Part shown: positions 1 through 10,426 of the stretch, one piece after another
Layout of the letters: every line of letters starts with the position of its first letter
Numbering within the stretch: position 1 is the stretch's first letter
NCBI RefSeq assembly: GCF_000243415.2
Contig: NZ_KI912270.1
Span: 186,001 to 250,000 of the forward strand
DNA from: Mycolicibacterium tusciae JS617
Lineage (GTDB): Bacteria > Actinomycetota > Actinomycetes > Mycobacteriales > Mycobacteriaceae
Direction: 5' to 3'
DNA length: 64,000 bases
Notes under the pieces: generated by a model
The model's database searches: none
Told to the model about the DNA's origin: nothing
Seen by the model: only the letters and a program-made list of their open reading frames with translations
Made by a program: the position numbers and the translations under genes

Positions 1-595
1 CGGCCAATAGTTGCTCGAGCGGTTGCGACGCCGGCTGCGCCGCCGGGTCGAATGTCCCGCGATGTCCGCCCGCCGAGGGGCCCTGTGCGGCCAGCACATC
101 GACGCCCGCGGTGACGGCCGCCTGCGCCTCCGCCAGCGTCGTCACGGTGCCGACGGTCACGATGCCTGCCTCGCGCAGCCTCCTGCATTCGTCCGCGCTC
201 GGCGCACCGAAGGTGAAGGACGCCACCTCTGGTCGCAGATCGAGCAACACGTCCAGCTTCGCGGCCCATGCGTCGTCATCGAACCGGGGCGGGGCGAGCG
301 CAGCACCGTAGCGCTCCGCCTCGGGGGCCAGCGCTGCGGCGTACGCCTCGATTGCGGCAGGCGTACCCGCACTGGGCTGTGGCGCAAACAGATTGGCGCC
401 GATGGGCCCGGTCGCGAGTTGGCGCGCCTTGGTCACTCGTTCGGCGAATACCTCGGCCGTCAGGTATCCCGCGGGGACGAACCCGAGGCCGCCGGCGTTC
501 GTTCCTGCGGCGGCCAGCTCAGGCGTCGACGGCCCACCGGCCATCGGCGCGACGATGATCGGGACCGTGAGGTCGCGGAGGTTGAACGCACTCAT
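1..595 (-). CDS. Nitronate monooxygenase (2-nitropropane dioxygenase family), 3' end outside window
   Basis: FMN-dependent oxidase of the NMO/NPD family, which oxidises alkyl nitronates. Read on the minus strand, the frame is open from ATG at 595 to the window edge, about 198 residues. The N-terminus reads MSAFNLRDLTVPIIVAPMAGG, the typical first beta-strand and loop of the NMO TIM barrel. Near the edge are GVDVLAAQGPSAGGH and then GTFDP, matching the family's flavin-phosphate and catalytic-histidine region (QGxEAGGH in relatives). A GTG lies directly before the ATG and is an alternative start. It sits 39 bp downstream of the broken acetyltransferase gene on the same strand, so the two were probably co-transcribed. 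The C-terminus is missing only because the window ends. Confidence 0.85.
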   Translation of the reverse strand, partial: MSAFNLRDLTVPIIVAPMAGGPSTPELAAAGTNAGGLGFVPAGYLTAEVFAERVTKARQLATGPIGANLFAPQPSAGTPAAIEAYAAALAPEAERYGAALAPPRFDDDAWAAKLDVLLDLRPEVASFTFGAPSADECRRLREAGIVTVGTVTTLAEAQAAVTAGVDVLAAQGPSAGGHRGTFDPAAQPASQPLEQLLA

Positions 596-634
596 CACTT
601 GACCGCCTTTGCGAACAGCAGGCAGTCCTGCGGC

Positions 635-902
635 TCAGAGCTGATATTCGGTAGCACTGTATAGCGCTTCAGGCGGCCTTCCAGCCAGGGTGAGCCCGCT
701 ACGTTTGAGCACCTGCGCCGAAGCCGCGTTGTCGGCGTAGCAGTGCGCCGAGACGTGGTATACGGCCGGGTCGCTGCGGGCGCTGTCGAGGACGAGCCGT
801 ACCGCCTCCGACATGTACCCCCGGCCCCACCACTGACGGCCAAGGTAATAGCCGAAGTCGACGATGTGGGGTTGTGGGCGCCGCCAGCCGGGCGGATTCA
901 TA
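635..902 (-). pseudogene. GNAT acetyltransferase, 3' fragment (RimJ/RimL type)
   Basis: C-terminal half of a GNAT N-acetyltransferase, cut off from its start by the IS30/IS110 insertion. It contains VDFGYYLGRQWWGRGYMSEA, the acetyl-CoA pyrophosphate-binding motif A (Q/R-x-x-G-x-G/A) of RimJ/RimL-type enzymes, then a typical NxASxxVLKRSG segment near the end. The matching N-terminal half lies at 3492-3742. Joining base 3492 to base 902 on the minus strand (251 + 268 nt) gives exactly 173 codons in one frame, so a functional gene of 172 residues existed before the insertion. The internal ATG at about 892 could start a short product, but that would lack the N-terminal half of the fold. Confidence 0.88.
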
Positions 903-938
903 CGGTCAGTGCAATATCTGTGATCAGAGGGGTTGCAC

Positions 939-1985
939 ATGCCGAGTGGTTATCCGCATTCGAGGTCGACGCGGCGGGAGTTGTTCGATCGGGTCTGCCT
1001 GGGTGAGCCGTTGGAGCGGGTGGCCAGGGACATGGGCGTGTCGACTACGGCGGCGAGTCTGTGGTGGCGTCAGGCTGGCGCAATGCCACTACTGCGCGGA
1101 CAGAACTCCGAGAGAACCCACGGCCTGATCACCTCCGGCGATCCCGACCGTCTCGGCGGCCGGGGGCATCGCCTCAGCCTGGATGAACGCATCGAGATCA
1201 TGCGCGGCCGCGACAACGGGCTCACCTACGAACGGATCGGCGAGAAGATCGGCCGGGACGCCAGCGTCGTCTGGCGAGAAGTGCACCGCAACAGCAACCC
1301 TGACGGGGATTACCACGCCGGGATGGCCCATGCCCGGGCTGCTCAGAAGGCCAAGCGTCCCAAGGGGTTCACCCTCGATGACCCGGTGCTGTGCGCCATG
1401 ATCGAAACGGCGATGGACGACGGGTGGAGTCCGAAGCTGATCTCCGAGCTGTTGGTCCGCGATCATCCCGATGACAAGCTGGCACGGGTGAGCCACGAAA
1501 CCATCTACAAATGCCTCTACGTCCAAACCCGTGGTCAACTCCGGGCTGACCTGCACAAGTGTCTATCGACCAAACGGGCGGCCCGTAAACCCCACCGGTC
1601 GGTCACCCGTGCCGGCGTCTATCCACCGGGATCGGTCTTCACCATCCGTGATCGCCCCGCCGAGGCCGCCGACCGGGCAGTGCCCGGGCACTGGGAGGGA
1701 GACTTGATCATGGGCGCCGGAAATGCCAGTGCCATAGGCACATTGGTGGAGCGCAGTACTCGGTTCACCATCCTGTTACACCTGCCCGCCGATCACACCG
1801 CCGAGTCGGTGGCCACCGCGATGATCGGGGCGATGAGCGAGCTGCCGGCGCACCTGCGGCGCACCATCACCTGGGACCGGGGCAGCGAGATGGCCAACTG
1901 GCGCACCATCGATCTGCAACTGCAGGCGCCGGTCTACTTCTGCGATCCTCACTCGCCCTGGCAACGGGGCACCAACGAGAACACC
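939..1985 (+). pseudogene. IS30-family transposase, 5' part
   Basis: DDE transposase of IS30. Start at ATG 939 is chosen because GAGGGG lies about 8 nt upstream (TTG at 933 is possible). The N-terminal part has a helix-turn-helix (LSLDERIEIMRGRDNGLTYERIGEKIGRD, written here in overlapping family terms). The catalytic core shows GHWEGDLIMG with the first Asp, TWDRGSEM with the second, and the Glu in GTNENT at the break point. After ACC at 1983-1985 the frame runs into IS110 sequence and stops at 2147, giving a chimeric tail. The correct C-terminus continues at 3302 with NRLLRFWFEKG. Counting the single C at the junction once, the intact gene would have been 404 codons. Confidence 0.88.
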
Positions 1986-2040
1986 TATTGGTGCACAGTG
2001 TTAGAACCGGACGGTTTCGACGGGAGCCGACCCGGTGAGC

Positions 2041-2190
2041 TGCTCGGTGACTCGGAAAACACGTGCCGTGAATGGCCTTCCGTTGATTTGTCCACAGCGG
2101 CTCGAGGCAAGAGCCCTGACCGGTGTGACCTGATAGAAGCCTGCTGAGCCTTCAACTCGCAATAGGTCTGTCCACCGGGCAGAGCCCCCG
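2041..2190 (+). ncRNA. Candidate IS110 bridge RNA with target- and donor-binding loops
   Basis: Noncoding left end of the IS110 element. IS110 recombinases use a structured bridge RNA from this position with two loops, each holding two guide segments. Here 2055-2062 (GAAAACAC) matches 7 of 8 bases of the left target GAGAACAC (1977-1984), and GTTG at 2082-2085 is complementary to CAAC at the right target (3301-3304). In a second loop ATAGAAGC at 2133-2140 is identical to the element's right end (3291-3298), and CAATA at 2160-2164 is complementary to its left end TATTG (1986-1990). The two loops have nearly equal spans (31 and 32 nt). A hairpin GGCTC/GAGCC (2099-2115) lies between them. RNA ends are approximate; expression is not shown. 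Confidence 0.68.
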
Positions 2191-2229
2191 CCATCGTCCC
2201 GTCACCCGGATGAGCGGAGGGACATTTCG

Positions 2230-3294
2230 ATGGTGACAGTAGGGATCGACCCACACAAGCACGTCCATGTTGCGGTGGCTGTCGATGCTCGCGGTAATCG
2301 CATAGGCAAGCCGCTGACCGTGAAAAACGATGGGCTGCTGATTACCGCGGTGCTCACCTGGATTCGCGCGATCACGGACGCCACCCCAGTGACCTGGGCC
2401 ATCGAAGACGGTCACGGCTTTGCCCGCCGGCTGGCCGATGGACTGCTGCTTGCGGGTCAAGAGGTGGTGTGGGTTCCTAGCCGGCTGACCGCCGCGCATC
2501 GTAAGTTGCACGCCGCCACGGGCTCCAAGTCAGATGCCATCGATGCCGTCGCGGCCGCACATGCCGCGATCGCGACACCGGATCTGACCCGCCATCGCAT
2601 CGACGAGCGGGTCCGCGAACTCCGCGTTCTCACCGACTACCGTGCTGACCTCGTCAAACGCCGCACCATGATGATCAACCAGCTCAAGGCGCAATCGCAT
2701 CTGTGGCTTGACCACACGCCCGGCGACCTGGCGCGGGCCAAGGTAGTAGCGGCGTTGACCGCGCGGCTCGAAGCCGCAGAGGTGGGCATCCACGTACGAC
2801 AGGTGATCGTCACGATGATCAGCGAGCTCGCCGAGGCCAACAACCGCATCCACGATCTCGACATCAGGATCAAAGAGCTCGTCACGCCCCTTACGCCGAA
2901 CCTGTTGGCAATAACCGGGATCAGCCACAACTCCGCAGCGGTGCTGCTCTCCGAAATCGGTGACATCGAACGGTTTTCGAGCTCAGCCAAACTAGCCCGC
3001 TACACCGGGTGCGCTCCGATTCCCGTCTATTCATCAGACAACGAACGTCACCGACTTCATCGAGGCGGCAACCGCCGTCTCAACAGCGTCCTTTACACGG
3101 CGGCGATCGTGCAGACACGCTTCAACCCGGCGGCTCAAAAACTCATCGCACGCCAAGAACCGACGAAGGGTGCCCGCGGCGCCAGACGCATCCTCAAGCG
3201 CCACCTCGTCGATGTGATCTACCGAGCGATGCACACCGACCAAGCCTCCTGGCAGCACCAAATCGCCAGATGCCAACCACTCGCATTGACATAG
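2230..3294 (+). CDS. IS110-family transposase (DEDD recombinase)
   Basis: 354 residues, normal for the family. The N-terminus MVTVGIDPHKHVHVAVAVD holds the first Asp of the RuvC-like DEDD domain, WAIEDGHGFARRLA the Glu, and GSKSDAIDAVAAA the later Asp pair. A coiled middle (about 150-225) leads to the C-terminal Transposase_20 domain with LLAITGISHNSAAVLLSEIGDI and the serine-bearing region around YTGCAPIPVYSS. The C-terminal Ser is thought to attack DNA in this family. The ATG follows GCGGAGGGACATTTCG, a good Shine-Dalgarno. The gene appears intact and lies directly after the candidate bridge RNA, so this inner element could still be active. Confidence 0.92.
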   Translation: MVTVGIDPHKHVHVAVAVDARGNRIGKPLTVKNDGLLITAVLTWIRAITDATPVTWAIEDGHGFARRLADGLLLAGQEVVWVPSRLTAAHRKLHAATGSKSDAIDAVAAAHAAIATPDLTRHRIDERVRELRVLTDYRADLVKRRTMMINQLKAQSHLWLDHTPGDLARAKVVAALTARLEAAEVGIHVRQVIVTMISELAEANNRIHDLDIRIKELVTPLTPNLLAITGISHNSAAVLLSEIGDIERFSSSAKLARYTGCAPIPVYSSDNERHRLHRGGNRRLNSVLYTAAIVQTRFNPAAQKLIARQEPTKGARGARRILKRHLVDVIYRAMHTDQASWQHQIARCQPLALT

Positions 3295-3300
3295 AAGCAT

Positions 3301-3466
3301 CAACCGGCTCCTGCGGTTCTGGTTCGAGAAGGGCGCCGACCTGAGCATGCACACCAAGGCCGACCTCAAACGGATCCAAGACAAACTCAACACCCGACCC
3401 CGACCTACCTTGGACCTCGACACGCCCGCCGACCGACTCGCCGCACTCATCGACCAAGCAGCCTGA
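3301..3466 (+). pseudogene. IS30-family transposase, 3' part
   Basis: Continuation of the IS30 transposase beyond the IS110 insert. In the frame starting at base 3302 it reads NRLLRFWFEKGADLS, then HTKADLKRIQDKLNTRPRP, ending LAALIDQAA with TGA at 3464-3466. This is the standard C-terminal tail of actinobacterial IS30 transposases. It has no start codon or ribosome binding site of its own, so it should not be expressed as a useful product. Its frame agrees with the 5' part once the single junction C is counted once. Confidence 0.88.
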
Positions 3467-3491
3467 CCAACAGCCGACGTTGCATTGACCG

Positions 3492-3742
3492 CTTGACAAC
3501 GCCCCGATGGCTCCTATCACTTCTCCACCTTCGCGCAAGTCGATCAACCGTGTGGTCTCCCCGCCGACGTTCAGCACCTCGGTGATGACGCGTTGGGTCT
3601 CGCCGACATTCCGATGTGGGCGCCACGACATATAGCGCGGCACTTCGGGGTCGGACGCAATCGCGAACAGCGGTTCTGCGTCGTCGAGGGTGGGTGCTCG
3701 CAGCGTTACCCGTGGACCCGTCAGGACATCGGCGTGCGTCAT
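3492..3742 (-). pseudogene. GNAT acetyltransferase, 5' fragment
   Basis: N-terminal half of the interrupted GNAT gene. From ATG 3742 it reads MTHADVLTGPRVTLRAPTLDDAEPL (split: MTHADVLTGPRV, then TLRAPTLDD), the standard RimJ/RimL opening, and runs to LREGGEVIGAIGALSS at the insertion point. ATG 3742 is preferred because AGGGGA lies just before it; an in-frame ATG at 3757 is possible. Downstream of base 3492 the frame enters the IS30 end and continues as unrelated sequence to 3194. The rest of the enzyme is at 635-902. Confidence 0.88.
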
Positions 3743-3796
3743 TCCCCTATGGTGCATCGTTGCCGCCCCGGCGTTGACGGTGGTTCACTGGATCTG

Positions 3797-4189
3797 ATGG
3801 CAATCACGTTCAACCACACCATCGTCGCCGCGAAAAATCGCGAAGAATCGGCGCGGTTCTTCACTGAGCTCTTCGGCCTTCCTGCCCCCAAGGAATTCGG
3901 GCCCTTCCTGGCCGTCGAACTCAATCACGGCGCCAGCCTCGACTACGCCCAGATAGGCACCGACGAGGACATCCGCCCGCAGCACTACGCATTCCTCGTC
4001 TCCGAGGACGAGTTCGACGCCATCTACGGGCGCATCCGCGAGCGCGGTCTGCAGCATTGGACCGACCCGCGGGGCAGCCGGCCCGGGGAGATCAACCACA
4101 ACGACGGAGGCCGCGGGGTGTACTTCCAAGATCCCGGCGGCCACTATCTGGAGATCATCACCCGGCCCTACGGATCCGGCGCGGACTGA
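3797..4189 (+). CDS. VOC (glyoxalase/bleomycin-resistance fold) family protein
   Basis: 130-residue single-domain vicinal-oxygen-chelate protein. The start ATG 3797 gives MAITFNHTIVAAKNREESARFF, with an early metal-site His (H7) and the ARFFTELFGLP helix typical of the family. A second half has QHYAFLVSEDEFDAIYGRIRERG (in parts), and the end has GRGVYFQDPGGHYLEIITRPYG, where the GHYLEI glutamate is the usual metal ligand. The substrate cannot be told from sequence; members act in detoxification, dioxygenation or antibiotic binding. Longer upstream reading to 3593 overlaps the GNAT 5' region and is not expected to be coding. Its 3' end overlaps the convergent next gene by 32 bp. Confidence 0.88.
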   Translation: MAITFNHTIVAAKNREESARFFTELFGLPAPKEFGPFLAVELNHGASLDYAQIGTDEDIRPQHYAFLVSEDEFDAIYGRIRERGLQHWTDPRGSRPGEINHNDGGRGVYFQDPGGHYLEIITRPYGSGAD

Positions 4190-4817
4190 CCCGCGACGCG
4201 AGCAGTTCGACACCGTCGCCGCGCAGTACGGGCAGCATTCGCGGCCGGTTGCCCAGAACGGATACCAGGTCGGCGGCGCGGCCCTCGACAAGCGGCCCCT
4301 GCGCACCGTGCGCCCACTCGACGTCGATGGCGTGCAGTCGCAGTCCCCGGCTGTTTGCGAACGCGGGCACGAACGGATTGGGCAGTGCCACTTGGGTGTT
4401 GAGCACCGCCATCAGGGCCTCGCCGGGAATCTGCGGTGCACGGTCGAGTGCGAACAGGATGTCGAGTTCATGGGTGATGTGATCGCCCAGCAGCAGCCGC
4501 GACGGGAAGATGCGGCCGAGCCCACGGGGCCGATGCACCAGCTGCCCGAACTCGTCGAGCAATTCGGCGGGGCTACGGACGTCCGCGAGCGCGCAGGCCA
4601 TCGCGGTGTTGGCGCGGTCGAATGAGCCGCCGTGGCGCAGTATCTCGCGCATCGTCAGACCGACGCCCGAGCGGTAGCCGATGACGAGGTGTGCCAGCAC
4701 CTGGTGGTTGGACCACTCGTCGCAGAGGCTCGGGTGCGCCCACTCGTCTTGGCCGAGTCCGGCGGCCAAGGAACGGAAGCGCTCGTCGTTGCCGCGCAGC
4801 ATTTCACGCACCGACAT
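4158..4817 (-). CDS. DinB/mycothiol-dependent maleylpyruvate isomerase-type protein
   Basis: 219 residues from ATG 4817 (MSVREMLRGNDERFRSLAAGL). The pattern HPSLCDEWSNHQVLAHLVIGY (in two parts: HPSLCDEWSN, HQVLAHLV) matches the metal-binding first part of the MDMPI/DinB four-helix fold, where early His and a later HxxxH (here GDHITHELDI) hold a divalent metal. In actinobacteria such proteins are often mycothiol-dependent S-transferases or isomerases. The start lies inside the end of the upstream hydrolase gene (14-bp overlap), indicating translational coupling. The more upstream in-frame ATG at 4853 would overlap that gene further and lacks family support. Confidence 0.82.
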   Translation of the reverse strand: MSVREMLRGNDERFRSLAAGLGQDEWAHPSLCDEWSNHQVLAHLVIGYRSGVGLTMREILRHGGSFDRANTAMACALADVRSPAELLDEFGQLVHRPRGLGRIFPSRLLLGDHITHELDILFALDRAPQIPGEALMAVLNTQVALPNPFVPAFANSRGLRLHAIDVEWAHGAQGPLVEGRAADLVSVLGNRPRMLPVLRGDGVELLASRVSPRRIRRAG

Positions 4818-5706
4818 TGAGGTGCTCCTGCAGGAAGGCGGTCTGGTCGGCAAGGACCTGGCTGACCAGCGGCGGATGGTAGATCGCGAAATGGTCCGAG
4901 TCGTAGTGCCTGGCGACGCCGCGAGGTGCCCGACGAGCCGCCAATTCGGCGTACCCGGGATCCATCAGGTTCTCGCGATCACACACGCACACCAGCAGAG
5001 GCGCCGTGACGTCGCGGGCGTGACGGAGCGCCGATGTGGTCACCATGGCCAACGCATTCGCGGCAGCGATCCGGTTGTCGAACCGTGCACCAGGCGGCAC
5101 AGTCGAGTTCCAGCCCTCCTCGGCACCCTCGACCGTGACCATCGCGAACCCTCCCGGCGGTCCCACGATCGGTACGTAGCGGCGCCCGCGCCGCATCGCG
5201 ACGCGCAGGAGGTCTTCGGTGATCGCCGGCGCCAGACGTAGCGCCGCGAACAGTCCGAGTCGGCGCGCTGCGCCTGGCCCGTGCACAATCGGGCACTGCA
5301 CGACCGCAACGGCGACATCGTCGCGCTCGGCCGCGACCCGGATGACGTTCATTGCACCGAGGCTGGTGCCCCACAGCCCGATTCGCGCGGCGTCGATATC
5401 GGCGCGGACGCCAAGGTGCGCGATGGCCGCCGCAACGTCCTGACATTGGTTTCGCGTCGAGATACGTTGCCGTGGTTGACCATCGGACGCACCGGTGTGT
5501 CGGTAATCGAATGCCAGGGTGGCGATGCCGGCCGCGGCGAAGTGCTGTTCGTACTGAGCCAGCATCATGTCGTGCGTCGCACCCAGGCCGTGGACGAGTA
5601 CGACGGCCGGATGTGGTCCGGCACCGGCAGGCAGCGTCAACCACGCCGCGCAACGCGTCCCGCGCGAATCGAAGTCCAGCCGTTCGGTCGGAATCGTCAC
5701 TGTCAT
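4804..5706 (-). CDS. Alpha/beta hydrolase (dienelactone hydrolase-like)
   Basis: 300 residues. HGLGATHD (about 39-46) is the oxyanion-hole motif, WGTSLGAMN (about 113-121) is the nucleophile elbow with Ser in GxSxG, and SDHFAIYHPP near the C-terminus holds the catalytic His. An acidic residue before it (DREN or nearby) would complete the triad. The substrate is unknown. It is the first gene of a two-gene operon with the DinB-like protein and is divergent from a TetR regulator. The 5723-5764 inverted repeats sit right in front of its start, so the operon is very probably repressed by that TetR protein. Confidence 0.87.
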   Translation of the reverse strand: MTVTIPTERLDFDSRGTRCAAWLTLPAGAGPHPAVVLVHGLGATHDMMLAQYEQHFAAAGIATLAFDYRHTGASDGQPRQRISTRNQCQDVAAAIAHLGVRADIDAARIGLWGTSLGAMNVIRVAAERDDVAVAVVQCPIVHGPGAARRLGLFAALRLAPAITEDLLRVAMRRGRRYVPIVGPPGGFAMVTVEGAEEGWNSTVPPGARFDNRIAAANALAMVTTSALRHARDVTAPLLVCVCDRENLMDPGYAELAARRAPRGVARHYDSDHFAIYHPPLVSQVLADQTAFLQEHLNVGA

Positions 5707-5722
5707 TGTCCACTCCTCATAG

Positions 5723-5764
5723 GTACGTTGTACGTATGGTTAGATTGCTTCACGTACGACGTAC
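5723..5764. promoter_or_regulatory. Probable TetR operator between divergent hydrolase and tetR genes
   Basis: Two copies of a 13-bp sequence face each other: GTACGTTGTACGT at 5723-5735 and, on the other strand, GTACGTCGTACGT (5752-5764), matching at 12 of 13 bases. Each copy is itself nearly palindromic (GTACG..GTACG type). They lie in the 76-bp gap between divergent start codons at 5706 and 5783, the classic site for a TetR autoregulator that also controls its neighbour. Confidence 0.75.
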
Positions 5765-5782
5765 TTGTCAAGGGGTTCAGAA

Positions 5783-6424
5783 ATGCGCGCACGGTTCACC
5801 ACCGACGAGATCGCCGCCGCGGCGTTGAGCATTGTCGACGACGCCGGCGTGAGCGCGTTGAGCATGCGCGCACTCGCGGCTGCGCTGGGCACCGGACCGA
5901 TGACGGTCTACAACTACGTGCCCGATAAGGAAGGGCTGGAGGAACTGGTCGTCGCCGCGGTGGTCGCCGAGGTGCGAGTGCCCGAGCCGACCGCGAACTG
6001 GATCGACGATGTCTACGCGGTGGCCGAGGCGATGTGGTTGGGCATCAGGGCCCATCCTGCCGCCATCCCCCTGGTGCTGACGCGCCGCACGTCGTCGGCG
6101 ACCGGTTTCGCGGTGGTCGACGCGCTCATTGCCGCACTTGGCCGTGGTGGCCTCTCGGACGCCGACCACCTCTCGGCCTTCCACGCCGTCTTTGCCCTCA
6201 TTGTCGGCGCGGCCCAGGCCGAACTCGCCGGGCCGTTCACGCGTGGCCGTGATGCCGGCGACGCCGCCGCGCGCATCGGATCGACCGCGGGCGCGGCGCA
6301 TCCCCACGTGGAAGCGCTCTCGCATGTCGCCGAGAAGGTGTCGGTGGAAGAGGACTTCGCGCAGGGCCTGCGCATGCTCCTCGAAGGGATCGCCGCGCGC
6401 GGCACGAAGCGGCGCCGGCGCTAA
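5783..6424 (+). CDS. TetR-family transcriptional regulator
   Basis: 213 residues from ATG 5783, preceded by AAGGGG. The N-terminal DNA-binding domain reads FTTDEIAAAALSIVDDAGV, then SMRALAAALGTGPMTVYNYV, the standard TetR helix-turn-helix with the TVYNYV recognition-helix end. The C-terminal part (about 70-210) resembles the TetR_C group found in tetracycline-type and actinobacterial regulators and would bind an unknown ligand. A basic tail (GTKRRRR) ends the protein. It is divergent from the hydrolase/DinB operon and shares the operator region at 5723-5764. Confidence 0.92.
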   Translation: MRARFTTDEIAAAALSIVDDAGVSALSMRALAAALGTGPMTVYNYVPDKEGLEELVVAAVVAEVRVPEPTANWIDDVYAVAEAMWLGIRAHPAAIPLVLTRRTSSATGFAVVDALIAALGRGGLSDADHLSAFHAVFALIVGAAQAELAGPFTRGRDAGDAAARIGSTAGAAHPHVEALSHVAEKVSVEEDFAQGLRMLLEGIAARGTKRRRR

Positions 6425-6433
6425 CGCAGGGCG

Positions 6434-6910
6434 CTAGCCCAGCGAGTGGCCGCGGGTCTCCTCCTGCGCGCGATAGTCGTCGGCCAGCTTGCCGACATGC
6501 TCGGGCAAGGTGCCTGCGGCGACCTCGGCGAGACTGGTCTGTTCGAGCACCGATCGCATACTGGCCCGCAACGCCCGCCACACGTCGGTCAGCGCCGCGG
6601 TCGGACCGGAGTACGGAAGGTCGCCGAGTCCGATGTCGCGCACGCTGGCCAGCGGGCCGTCGATGCATCTGAGCACGTCGGCAAGGCTGATGTCGGCGGC
6701 CGGCCTCGCCAGCGTGTATCCGCCGTCGCGGCCGCGGTGGCTGCGAACGAGGCGGTCGGTGCGCAGGTCGGAGAGGATGTCGACGAGGAACTGCGCGGGG
6801 ATGCCCTGCGCCTTGGCCAGGTCGTCGGTCTTGACCACCGCGCCGTCATCGGTGGTGGCGAGCTGAATCATCGCGCGGACGGCATATTCAGCTTTTGCCG
6901 ACATCCGCAT
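6434..6910 (-). CDS. Rrf2-family transcriptional regulator of the sulfur operon
   Basis: 158 residues from ATG 6910 ([18 protein letters not shown]); ATG 6904 is also possible, and TTG 6922 would overlap the cysQ stop as TTGA. The N-terminal winged helix ([41 protein letters not shown]) is typical of Rrf2. The region after it ([11 protein letters not shown] to LTDVWRAL) has only one Cys and not the three Fe-S cysteines of IscR, so it is more like CymR, the cysteine-metabolism regulator. It is the last gene of cysD-cysNC-cysQ-rrf2; an Rrf2 gene follows cysN in M. tuberculosis too (recalled as Rv1287). This suggests feedback control of sulfate assimilation. Confidence 0.85.
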
Positions 6911-6918
6911 GAGCCCAG

Positions 6919-7659
6919 TCAATCACGTGTGACCGTGAGCACCGCTTCTGCGAGCTCCGGTCGGCACACGACCACGTCGGGTAACCGTGGATCGCGTCTG
7001 TTGTAGGTGAGCGGTGAGCCGTCGATTCGCGACGTGTGCAGTCCGGCTGCCCGGGCCACCGCGACGGGCGCCGCCGAGTCCCATTCGTATTGACCGCCGG
7101 CGTGCACGTAGACGTCAGAGAGCCCTTGCACCACGGAGGCGACCTTGGCCCCCGCCGAGCCCATTTCGACCAGTACGCCACCCAACGCGTCACGCACCGC
7201 CAGCGCGACAGCGGGCGGCCGGGTACGCGAAACCACTACCCGCGGCTGCTCGGGAGCCGGCGGCGGTGCGCTGACCGTGGGCGTCGCGAGCGTGATGCCC
7301 TGTGCTGGAAGGGCGACCGCGCCTGCGACCAGTTCACCCGACTGCCAAAGTGCCACGTGTACCGCCCAATCGTCGCGGCCCAACTCGGAGAACTCCCGCG
7401 TGCCGTCGAGCGGGTCGATGATCCACACCCGGTCCGCGGACAGCCGGATCGGGTCGTCCGCACCTTCTTCTGAGAGCACCGCATCGCCGGGACGCTCGGC
7501 GGCCAGCGCGGCCATCAGGAAATCGTGGGACCGCTTGTCCCCCGCAGCTTTCCGCTCATCCTGACTGGCCTGCGCGAGCTCGTCGCGGACTTCGAGCAAA
7601 AGCTTGCCCGCGTCCGTCGCCAACCGCGCAGCGACGTCATGATCGCTGTGATCGCTCAC
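6919..7659 (-). CDS. cysQ: 3'(2'),5'-bisphosphate nucleotidase CysQ
   Basis: 246 residues of the inositol-monophosphatase superfamily. It dephosphorylates PAP/PAPS to AMP/APS in the cytoplasm and so tunes sulfate assimilation. The metal-binding signatures are present: LSEEG (62-66), [12 protein letters not shown] (79-90) and EWDSAAP (192-198). The N-terminal text [10 protein letters not shown] and [10 protein letters not shown] resemble the mycobacterial CysQ I recall as Rv2131c. The start ATG overlaps the end of cysNC by 4 nt (ATGA), so it is translationally coupled. In M. tuberculosis cysQ is at another locus, so its place here inside the cys operon is a difference. Confidence 0.9.
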
Positions 7660-9499
7660 TGCTTACTCTCCAGCAGTTCAACCACCCTGTCCGCGAGCTC
7701 GTCCGGCGTGGATTCGGGAGTGAGTCGCAGGTCAGGGGTCTTGGGCCGTTGGTACGGGCTGTCGATTCCGGTGAAGTGGGTGATCTCGCCCGCACGCGCC
7801 TTCTTGTACAGGCCCTTCGGGTCGCGCCGTTCGCAGTCGTCCAGCGGGGTGTCGCAGAACACCTCGAAGAAGTCCAGGCCCGCGTCTGTGGTCACCTTGC
7901 GCGCCAGCGCACGGTGCTCCTCCAGCGGGCTGATGGCGGGCACCAGGACGACCTGACCGGAGTCGGCGAGGATAGCGGCGATGTGGGCCAGCCGGCGCTG
8001 GTTCTCGGCGCGGTCGGCCATGGAGAACCCGAGGTCTGCGTTGAGCCCGTGCCGCAGGTTGTCGCCGTCGAGAACATAAGCGGGTACGCCTTTTTCGAGC
8101 AGCTTCTGCTCGACGAGCATGGCCACCGAGGATTTTCCAGATCCCGACAACCCGGTGAACCAGATGGTCCTACCCCTGGACAGCCGGTCCTCGGCCTTGC
8201 ACAGCGATTCGTGGCGCACGGTATTCGGACTCGAGGTGCGTGCCGCGACTTGCGGCAGGATCATGCCCGCCGCGATGGTGCCGTTGGTATTCGGATCGAT
8301 CAGGATGAACGAGCCGGTGGCCGCGTTGCGGCTGTACTCGTCGAGCAGCAGCGGAACCTGCGTGCGTAGCGAGATACGGCCCAGCTCATTGAGTTTGAGT
8401 GCCGTCGCGGTCTTGTCTCGGTGCAGTGTGTTGACGTCGAGCCGGTAGTCCAGCGCCGTCACCTTGACCCGCGTGGTGCGGGTCGTGTGCTTGATGACGT
8501 AGTCGCGGCCGGGTTCGAGCGACGTCTCGTCGGCCATCCAACACACCGTCGCGTCGAATTCCTGTGCCACCCTCGGCTGGTTGTTCGGCCGGGCGATCAG
8601 GTCACCGCGCGAGATGTCGATGTCGTCGGCCAGGCTGACCGACACCGCCATCGGCGGAAAGGCTTCCGCTACCGGCCCGCTGGGGCCTTCGATCGTGGTG
8701 ATACGGCTCGTCTTTCCGGTGGGAAGAACGACTACCTCGTCACCGGGGCGCATCACCCCGCCGGCGACGGTGCCGGCATAACTACGGTGATCGGCGTGCT
8801 CGTGGGTCTGCGGCCTGATCACGAACTGGACCGGGAACCGCACGTCGACGAGGTTGCGATCGCCTGCGATGTACACATCCTCGAGGTGCGACAGCAGTGC
8901 GGGCCCGTCGTACCACGGCGTGACGTCGGATTTGGTTACCACGTTGTCGCCCTTGAGCGCCGACAACGGAATGGTCGTCACGTCGTGGATGTCCAGGCGC
9001 GCGGCGAACTCATGAAAACTGTCCCGTATCGTCTCAAATTTCTCCTGATCCCAGTCGACGAGGTCCATTTTGTTGACCGCGAGAACGATGTGCCTGATGC
9101 CGAGAAGCGAGGCCAGGAAGGCGTGCCGACGCGACTGCTCGAGCAGGCCGTGGCGGGCGTCGACCAACACGATCGCCAGTTGGGCGGTCGACGTGCCGGT
9201 CACCATGTTGCGCGTGTACTGGATGTGGCCCGGCGTGTCGGCGATGATGAATTTCCGCTTGGGAGTGGCGAAGTAGCGGTAGGCGACGTCGATCGTGATG
9301 CCTTGTTCGCGTTCGGCGCGCAGGCCGTCCGTCACCAACGCCAGATCGGTGTAGTCGTGTCCGCGTTCCTTGGAGGTGCGCTCGACAGCGGCGAGCTGAT
9401 CCTCCATGACCGCCTTGGAGTCGAACAAGAGGCGGCCGATGAGAGTTGACTTGCCGTCGTCGACGGAACCTGCCGTCGCGATGCGCAGTAGCGTCGCCA

Positions 9500-9500
<1 letters not shown>
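7656..9500 (-). CDS. cysNC: Bifunctional sulfate adenylyltransferase subunit 1 / APS kinase CysNC
   Basis: 614 residues with two enzymes fused. Residues 1 to about 430 are the CysN GTPase that drives APS formation by CysD: P-loop GSVDDGKST (11-19), DTPGH and NKMD motifs, and an EF-Tu-like beta-barrel. From about 445 the APS kinase follows: GRTIWFTGLSGSGKSS, DGDNLRHGLN, and the YKKARAG / FTGIDSPY region. The fused protein makes PAPS from APS. It starts at ATG 9500, overlapping the cysD stop as TGATG, and overlaps cysQ by 4 nt, so the whole operon is tightly coupled. Confidence 0.96.

Positions 9501-10426
<926 letters not shown>

Follow-up and report, generated by a model that had tools for sequence, protein, structure and literature searches.

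After analyzing the window, a 64,000-nucleotide stretch of the Mycolicibacterium tusciae JS617 genome, we consider it very probable, judging from its sequence and that of its relatives, that a nested IS110 element in it is guided by a bridge RNA aimed at the codons of the IS30 catalytic site. The mechanism is already known, and the choice of target is unusual. The guide is directed against a protein motif that a different transposon family conserves, and it has been kept over deep divergence; relatives of the element carry other guides and have other targets.

The nested locus and its candidate bridge RNA

The first 3.8 kb of the window contain a GNAT acetyltransferase gene interrupted by an IS30 element, which is itself interrupted by the IS110 element. 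The acetyltransferase gene lies on the minus strand in two pieces (window 638-937 and 3501-3754) that are contiguous on the Pfam profile, with the IS30 element between them. The remaining features of the locus are listed below.

891..3503 (ends approximate), plus strand: interrupted host IS30 element, delimited as the stretch common to the IS30 copies of the genome
933-1984, continuing into the IS110 left end, plus strand: host IS30 transposase frame (NCBIfam transpos_IS30, 214.1 bits, cutoff 80)
1977..1984, plus strand: left target half GAGAACAC, from empty copies in the same genome
1985..3300 (left end ambiguous by one base), plus strand: IS110 element, 1316 bp, from occupied versus empty sites
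1985..1991, plus strand: left end and right donor half CTATTGG, from the junctions
1994..1999, plus strand: -10-like CACAGT, which in a circle with joined ends would be separated from TTGACA by 18 bp
2230..3294, plus strand: IS110 transposase, 354 aa (Pfam PF01548 and PF02371, NCBIfam NF033542)
3286..3291, plus strand: -35-like TTGACA, overlapping the end of the transposase gene and present in 18/19 elements
3291..3298, plus strand: left donor half ATAGAAGC, the right end of the element, followed by AT at 3299-3300, from junction comparison and an 8/8 guide match
3301..3307, plus strand: right target half CAACCGG, from empty copies

The left junction reads GAGAACAC/CTATTGG (1977-1984 and 1985-1991) and the right junction ATAGAAGC-AT/CAACCGG (3291-3300 and from 3301 onward), whereas the three IS30 copies of this genome that are uninterrupted have GAGAACAC/CAACCGG there. 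The occupied ends rejoin to the empty-site sequence, and therefore no target bases were lost or duplicated. An earlier note on this DNA had rightly described an IS110 nested in an IS30 but had begun the element at 1986; the empty sites put its left end at 1985, with an ambiguity of one base owing to a C common to target and element. The left target half encodes Glu, Asn and two bases of Thr, and the insertion is just 3′ of the glutamate codon. This residue is the E of D(33)E, with 33 residues between it and the conserved aspartate. The IS30 motif is given as D-(54-61)-D-(33)-E in the matching part of PMC2516522, and from that motif we infer that the targeted glutamate is the catalytic one of IS30.

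The 7.3-Mb genome (4 contigs) carries six IS110 copies with identical proteins, and 8 further matches are relatives at 30-34% identity. All six copies occupy one IS30 position and point the same way with respect to IS30; over 1985-3300 the sole difference among them is a single base in one copy. The genome has exactly three occurrences of the 14-mer site GARAACACCAACSG, each at an empty IS30. The differing copy, L001 (G000:C4:3855385), has G changed to C at the equivalent of window 3297, inside the left donor half (ATAGAACC), and this change may hinder later excision.

The protein carries the DEDD/RuvC N-terminal domain (PF01548, 87.3 bits, cutoff 29) and the Transposase_20 domain (PF02371, 71 bits, cutoff 21.3), and it scores 167.8 bits against NF033542, 'IS110 family RNA-guided transposase' (cutoff 140). 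A PDB sequence search at E 0.001 gave no match. The noncoding left end of 245 nt and the mere 6 nt between stop codon and right end correspond to the IS110-group layout and not to that of the IS1111 group, which has a long noncoding region downstream of the gene. Additionally, the left end contains a candidate RNA with two internal loops, seen in the consensus fold and covariation of 18 sequences, the first loop fitting the target and the second the element ends. By these sequence features, the element is a member of the IS110 group of the IS110 family. The RNA and its guides are as follows.

2019..2203, plus strand: bridge RNA candidate, with a closing stem GACGGGA (2019-2025) / TCCCGTC (2197-2203) around two internal loops (RNAalifold and pair counts, 18 left ends)
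2055..2062, plus strand: left target guide GAAAACAC (flank match and shuffle test)
2080..2087, plus strand: CCGTTGAT, the right target guide CCGTTG and two handshake-like bases, AT (guide/junction table)
2133..2140, plus strand: left donor guide ATAGAAGC, 8/8 to 3291-3298
2160..2167, plus strand: right donor guide CAATAG (2160-2165) and two handshake-like bases, GT, complementary to AC (guide/junction table)

All four guide stretches stand where the earlier note had placed them, its GTTG (2082-2085) lying inside the longer right target guide stretch, and the spans of 31 and 32 nt that it gave for the two loops hold as well. The left guide of the window copy matches its target at 7/8 bases, the mismatch being GAA in the guide against GAG in the target; on the right side CAAC is paired and is followed by a mismatch. 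The GAA and GAG alleles of guide and target look associated, the cases being few and not independent. We shuffled 1993-2229 20,000 times with dinucleotides kept. A left-target guide with at most one mismatch arose in 3013/20,000 shuffles (15%), left-target and right-target guides together in 406/20,000, an exact left-donor guide in 21/20,000, the two donor guides together in 0/20,000 and the full four-guide layout in 0/20,000. The target loop of the window copy is therefore not strong alone, the donor loop is strong, and the relatives are decisive.

When 18 homologous left ends were aligned, RNAalifold returned a closing stem, a first stem leading to the target loop and a second stem leading to the donor loop. 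In this consensus fold 95.8% of cells were paired, compared with 37-46% when partners were slid, a comparison favoured by taking the structure from the same alignment. Changes on both sides were found in 15/37 pairs, a covariation count that relatedness makes less independent than shuffles suggest, and none of the five fold measures was reached by shuffles that do not keep relatedness (0/500). Single sequences were less telling: the window RNA folded alone (1988-2229) gave a nonsignificant z of -1.23, 22/200 shuffles folding equally well, and five of six single-sequence pieces were indistinguishable from shuffles. The one piece that stood out was window 2098-2204, the donor-loop half (z -2.13, 4/200). 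Searching window 1-10000 against Rfam at E 1 revealed no bridge RNA family, its only two matches being far below the gathering score. The left end does not look coding because relatives differ there by 1- and 2-nt indels. The earlier note had named the lack of a conserved two-loop structure and coding selection on the left end as grounds for giving up its reading; the fold, with its compensatory pair changes, answers the former, and the indels argue against the latter.

Guides, handshake-like bases and cores among relatives

The scan of genome contigs yielded 78 loci, most of the later ones distant, and plasmids yielded 5 records; more came from genome searches. We tabulated 26 elements, 25 of them with a readable left flank (L060 was kept without one). 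Among these 25, which have five different guide sequences, the guide matched its own left flank at 8/8 bases in 20, 7/8 in 4 and 6/8 in 1. The flank counts omit L027 and L028 (the same loci as L056 and L057), L154-L156 (the same as L151-L153), the near-duplicates L061 and L068, the fragment L030, the remnants L135-L137, L066 with an unrecognisable left end, L071 and L152 with the left end missing, L069 and L078, which are truncated with a flank that by eye does not match the guide, the distant L007-L014 and L079-L133, the other five copies of the source genome, and a mycobacterial group at 35-39% identity that has its own table (15/25 loci parsed). Outside these counts, L159 read by eye has the guide GGGATGAT, identical to its own flank. 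The 6/8 match belongs to L056, in whose junction two bases are unlike the others. When the 8 distinct guide/target pairs were compared, 60/64 positions matched, versus a mean of 40.4 for swapped pairs, and only 17/20,000 swaps scored as high.

Guides and targets differ jointly between lineages, as the sequences show. Nocardiopsis metallicus, whose protein is 50% identical, has the guide AGCAAGAT at a AGCAAGAT flank in all six copies tabulated, and its genome (G297) contains 19 empty AGCAAGATCATCG sites, compared with 0 for the reversed control. In 5/6 of the occupied N. metallicus copies (L072-L077), this alternative target lies beside a palindrome. The sites apparently belong to a REP-like repeat family. 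TACAAGAT is found in both guide and flank of L150, whose right side also matches at ten bases, and again in both guide and flank of L158; TCCATGAT is found in both guide and flank of L151 and L153. The donor guide likewise follows the element end, with ATAGAAGG in the guide and right end of L158, CTACTG in the guide and left end of L072 and L150, and CTCTCT in the guide and left end of L151. An unchanged first loop in unrelated targets, which the earlier note had set down as an objection to its own reading, is not what we found: relatives elsewhere carry changed guides that match their targets.

We add to that note, which had none, the handshake-like bases. The two bases after the right-target guide fit the two pre-crossover bases of the donor at 28/34 positions and those of the target itself at 13/34, and the two bases after the right-donor guide fit the target at 30/34 and the donor's own at 10/34; the counts come from 17 of the 26 elements, which are related and are not 17 independent cases. 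Some positions misfit, for example in the Streptomyces copies and L157. In the passages of Hiraizumi et al. 2024 (PMC11208158) on handshake guides, this pattern is reported to favour strand exchange.

Wherever a right end was tabulated, the right target half starts with CA, and the left ends of the elements start with CT (TT in L064). We first placed the target core at AC/AT and the donor core at NT, and dropped this because aligning the right guides to the published numbering favours CA for the target core and CT for the donor core. AC/AT and NT then become the two handshake positions, and the crossover can be located no more closely than the shared C. The CT core of IS621, common to target and donor, was thus not encountered; it is a preference of IS621 and does not define the family. 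If the core is CA/CT, the products at every junction of the clade retain the second core base on their right half, although top-strand cleavage in IS621 falls after the core.

TTGACA follows the gene in 18/19 elements when checked without using the motif, L159 being the one that lacks it. CANNNT stands 17-18 bp from TTGACA across the joined ends in 17/17 elements, a count without a chance control. The guide/junction and handshake tables located right ends by the motif TTGACATAGAAG[C/G], and TTGACA in them is not independently counted. In IS621, -35 and -10 boxes meet at the joined ends, according to the relevant passages of Hiraizumi et al. 2024 (PMC11208158).

IS30 as the target and the origin of the shared site

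Elements with this guide type have their left junction in an IS30 transposase at 15 loci, the window included and three of them read by eye. At 3 more loci only the right junction is in an IS30 transposase, 1 locus is in TnpB, and the flank of the truncated L069 does not match its guide. The expectation in the earlier note that the element is aimed at IS30 elements in general is thus borne out, with the TnpB copy and L069 as exceptions. In a tree of 21 proteins, the 12 that are IS30-aimed form one group (support 92/99), requiring one change, with members in at least four actinobacterial families: Mycobacteriaceae, Pseudonocardiaceae, Nocardioidaceae and Streptomycetaceae. The TnpB copy, from M. 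neglectum (L027/L056), is identical over the 1314 bases compared and sits in the TnpB gene at GAAAACCTCAACG; its site, GAAAAC-CT-CAACG, retains GAAAAC and CAACG of the guide. The 14-mer GARAACACCAACGG was present in 47/197 genomes of the class, and among the 30 loci listed with the exact 14-mer, one per genome, 18 were IS30 transposases and 12 were not. The 14-mer sequence is therefore not fully IS30-specific. Among the matches listed in our searches of open-access journal articles on IS110 with IS30 or another IS, IS1111/seekRNA and bridge RNA, no IS110 lineage aimed at IS30 was announced.

We provide a putative mechanism for the insertion. The left end would encode a bridge RNA of the IS110 type. 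The element would be excised as a circle, in which TTGACA of the right end and CANNNT of the left end would make a junction promoter driving the RNA. The first loop would pair with the conserved IS30 codons GARAACAC/CAACGG and the second with the joined ends of the element itself, ATAGAAGC/CTATTG. The IS110 recombinase would then swap strands, placing the element just after the Glu codon of D(33)E without target loss or duplication. In this scheme transcription, the binding of RNA to protein, the circle and the chemistry are inferred from IS621.

Could the shared site instead descend from a single ancestral insertion, with IS30 and IS110 forming one old composite in which IS110 moves as an IS30 passenger? 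Within the source genome this has some appeal. Five of the six copies lie in IS30 elements whose upstream parts show no more than one base difference and which occupy different chromosomal places, and some of these may be moved by an intact IS30 in trans. The sixth, L002, is excepted: its IS30 has 257 upstream differences from the other copies (equivalent of 891-1217), the last at 1217, and is alike afterwards, and is thus chimeric or recombined in its 5′ part. At base 1725, however, both alleles are found among occupied and among empty IS30 copies, and together with the distinct 5′ part of L002 this implies at least two insertions, or gene conversion, in this genome. The composite is contradicted between species. 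Among 12 host loci (L058 and L062 were omitted for short flanks, and some host alignments cover only 35 aa), the IS30 hosts were less alike than their IS110 passengers in 65/66 pairs, by more than 10 points in 62, and between species the hosts were 26-59% identical in 56/66 pairs in which the passengers were 71-88% identical. The insertions were therefore independent and repeated, because the hosts differ far more than the passengers. The identical element in the TnpB gene of M. neglectum also speaks against a fixed composite, and we regard this origin as very unlikely.

It is less likely again that the recombinase protein itself recognizes the site, with guide matches that are mere coincidence or relics. 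Conservation of the IS30 motif would allow protein recognition, but guides differ jointly with targets in other lineages while the left donor guide is nearly constant, and the handshake-like bases fit the partner DNA. A leader, protein-coding or untranslated, whose matches to target and ends arose by chance is so improbable an account of the left end that we set it aside, since the read-through frames on both strands and a left-target match that alone is within chance are outweighed by the 1-2-nt indels, the compensatory pair changes and the full layout in 0/20,000 shuffles.

Comparison with known systems and a mycobacterial side group

The RNA-guided reading of the element agrees in most respects with the bridge RNAs of IS621 and the IS110 group, as far as these are set out in the corresponding passages of Durrant et al. 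2024 (PMC11208160) and Hiraizumi et al. 2024 (PMC11208158). As there, the candidate RNA belongs to the left end, ahead of the recombinase gene, and has two internal loops; the left guides equal the top strand and the right guides are complementary to it; a -35-like box in the right end would meet a -10-like box in the left end at the joined ends; and handshake-like bases follow the right guides. Unlike IS621, which in those passages has CT cores in target and donor, the present element, read in the register given by the right guides, has a CA target core and a CT donor core, with CT at the left junction and CA at the right, and its target is a coding motif of another transposon.

The seekRNA elements of the IS1111 and IS110 types, such as ISEc21, are similar in the parts of Siddiquee et al. 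2024 (PMC11187229) that describe an upstream noncoding region (in IS110 types), target-matching guides and natural reprogramming between relatives. IS30, the target here, is not among the targets described in those parts. In the matching part of PMC1525189, REP-targeting IS110 elements use a scattered repeated site that offers many landing places, and the Nocardiopsis relative seems to use its palindromic repeat in this way. The IS30-aimed clade, in contrast, lands in a motif that is conserved, codes for protein and belongs to a mobile element.

We lean toward the view that this IS110 clade, long-lived and present in four or more families of actinobacteria, is now a specialist parasite of IS30. 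Its guide would be locked on catalytic Glu codons that IS30 cannot easily change; its landings would break the IS30 transposase and give a neutral site, and the element may ride on IS30 mobility and restrain the spread of IS30. IS30, TnpB and the palindromic repeats form a natural test set for bridge-RNA rules, such as the assignment of loop bases to target, donor and handshake, and the same set could test how differing target and donor cores get resolved.

We also observed a side group of mycobacterial relatives near start codons. In 7 related loci (L032, L034-L037, L040 and L049) with a CAATG/CTATG end, mostly no real gene follows the end. At 13 loci (approximately 35-40% identical), the element ends with TTGACATAGGAG-AAAC-NN directly before ATG or GTG (right ends of L039, L041-L046, L048, L050 and L052-L055), and an ORF of at least 135 aa follows the right end in 12/13. 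The left-target guides of these loci contain TANNNT in all 10 that could be parsed. From these sequences, the group looks aimed between the -10 box and the start codon; perhaps the targets are leaderless genes, with the element supplying GGAG as a ribosome site. In the wider mycobacterial group (15 parsed loci), the mean run of matches between guide and left flank was 6.9, versus 3.7 when swapped, and 0/5000 swaps were as high. L042 and L043 have common flanks adjoining the element.
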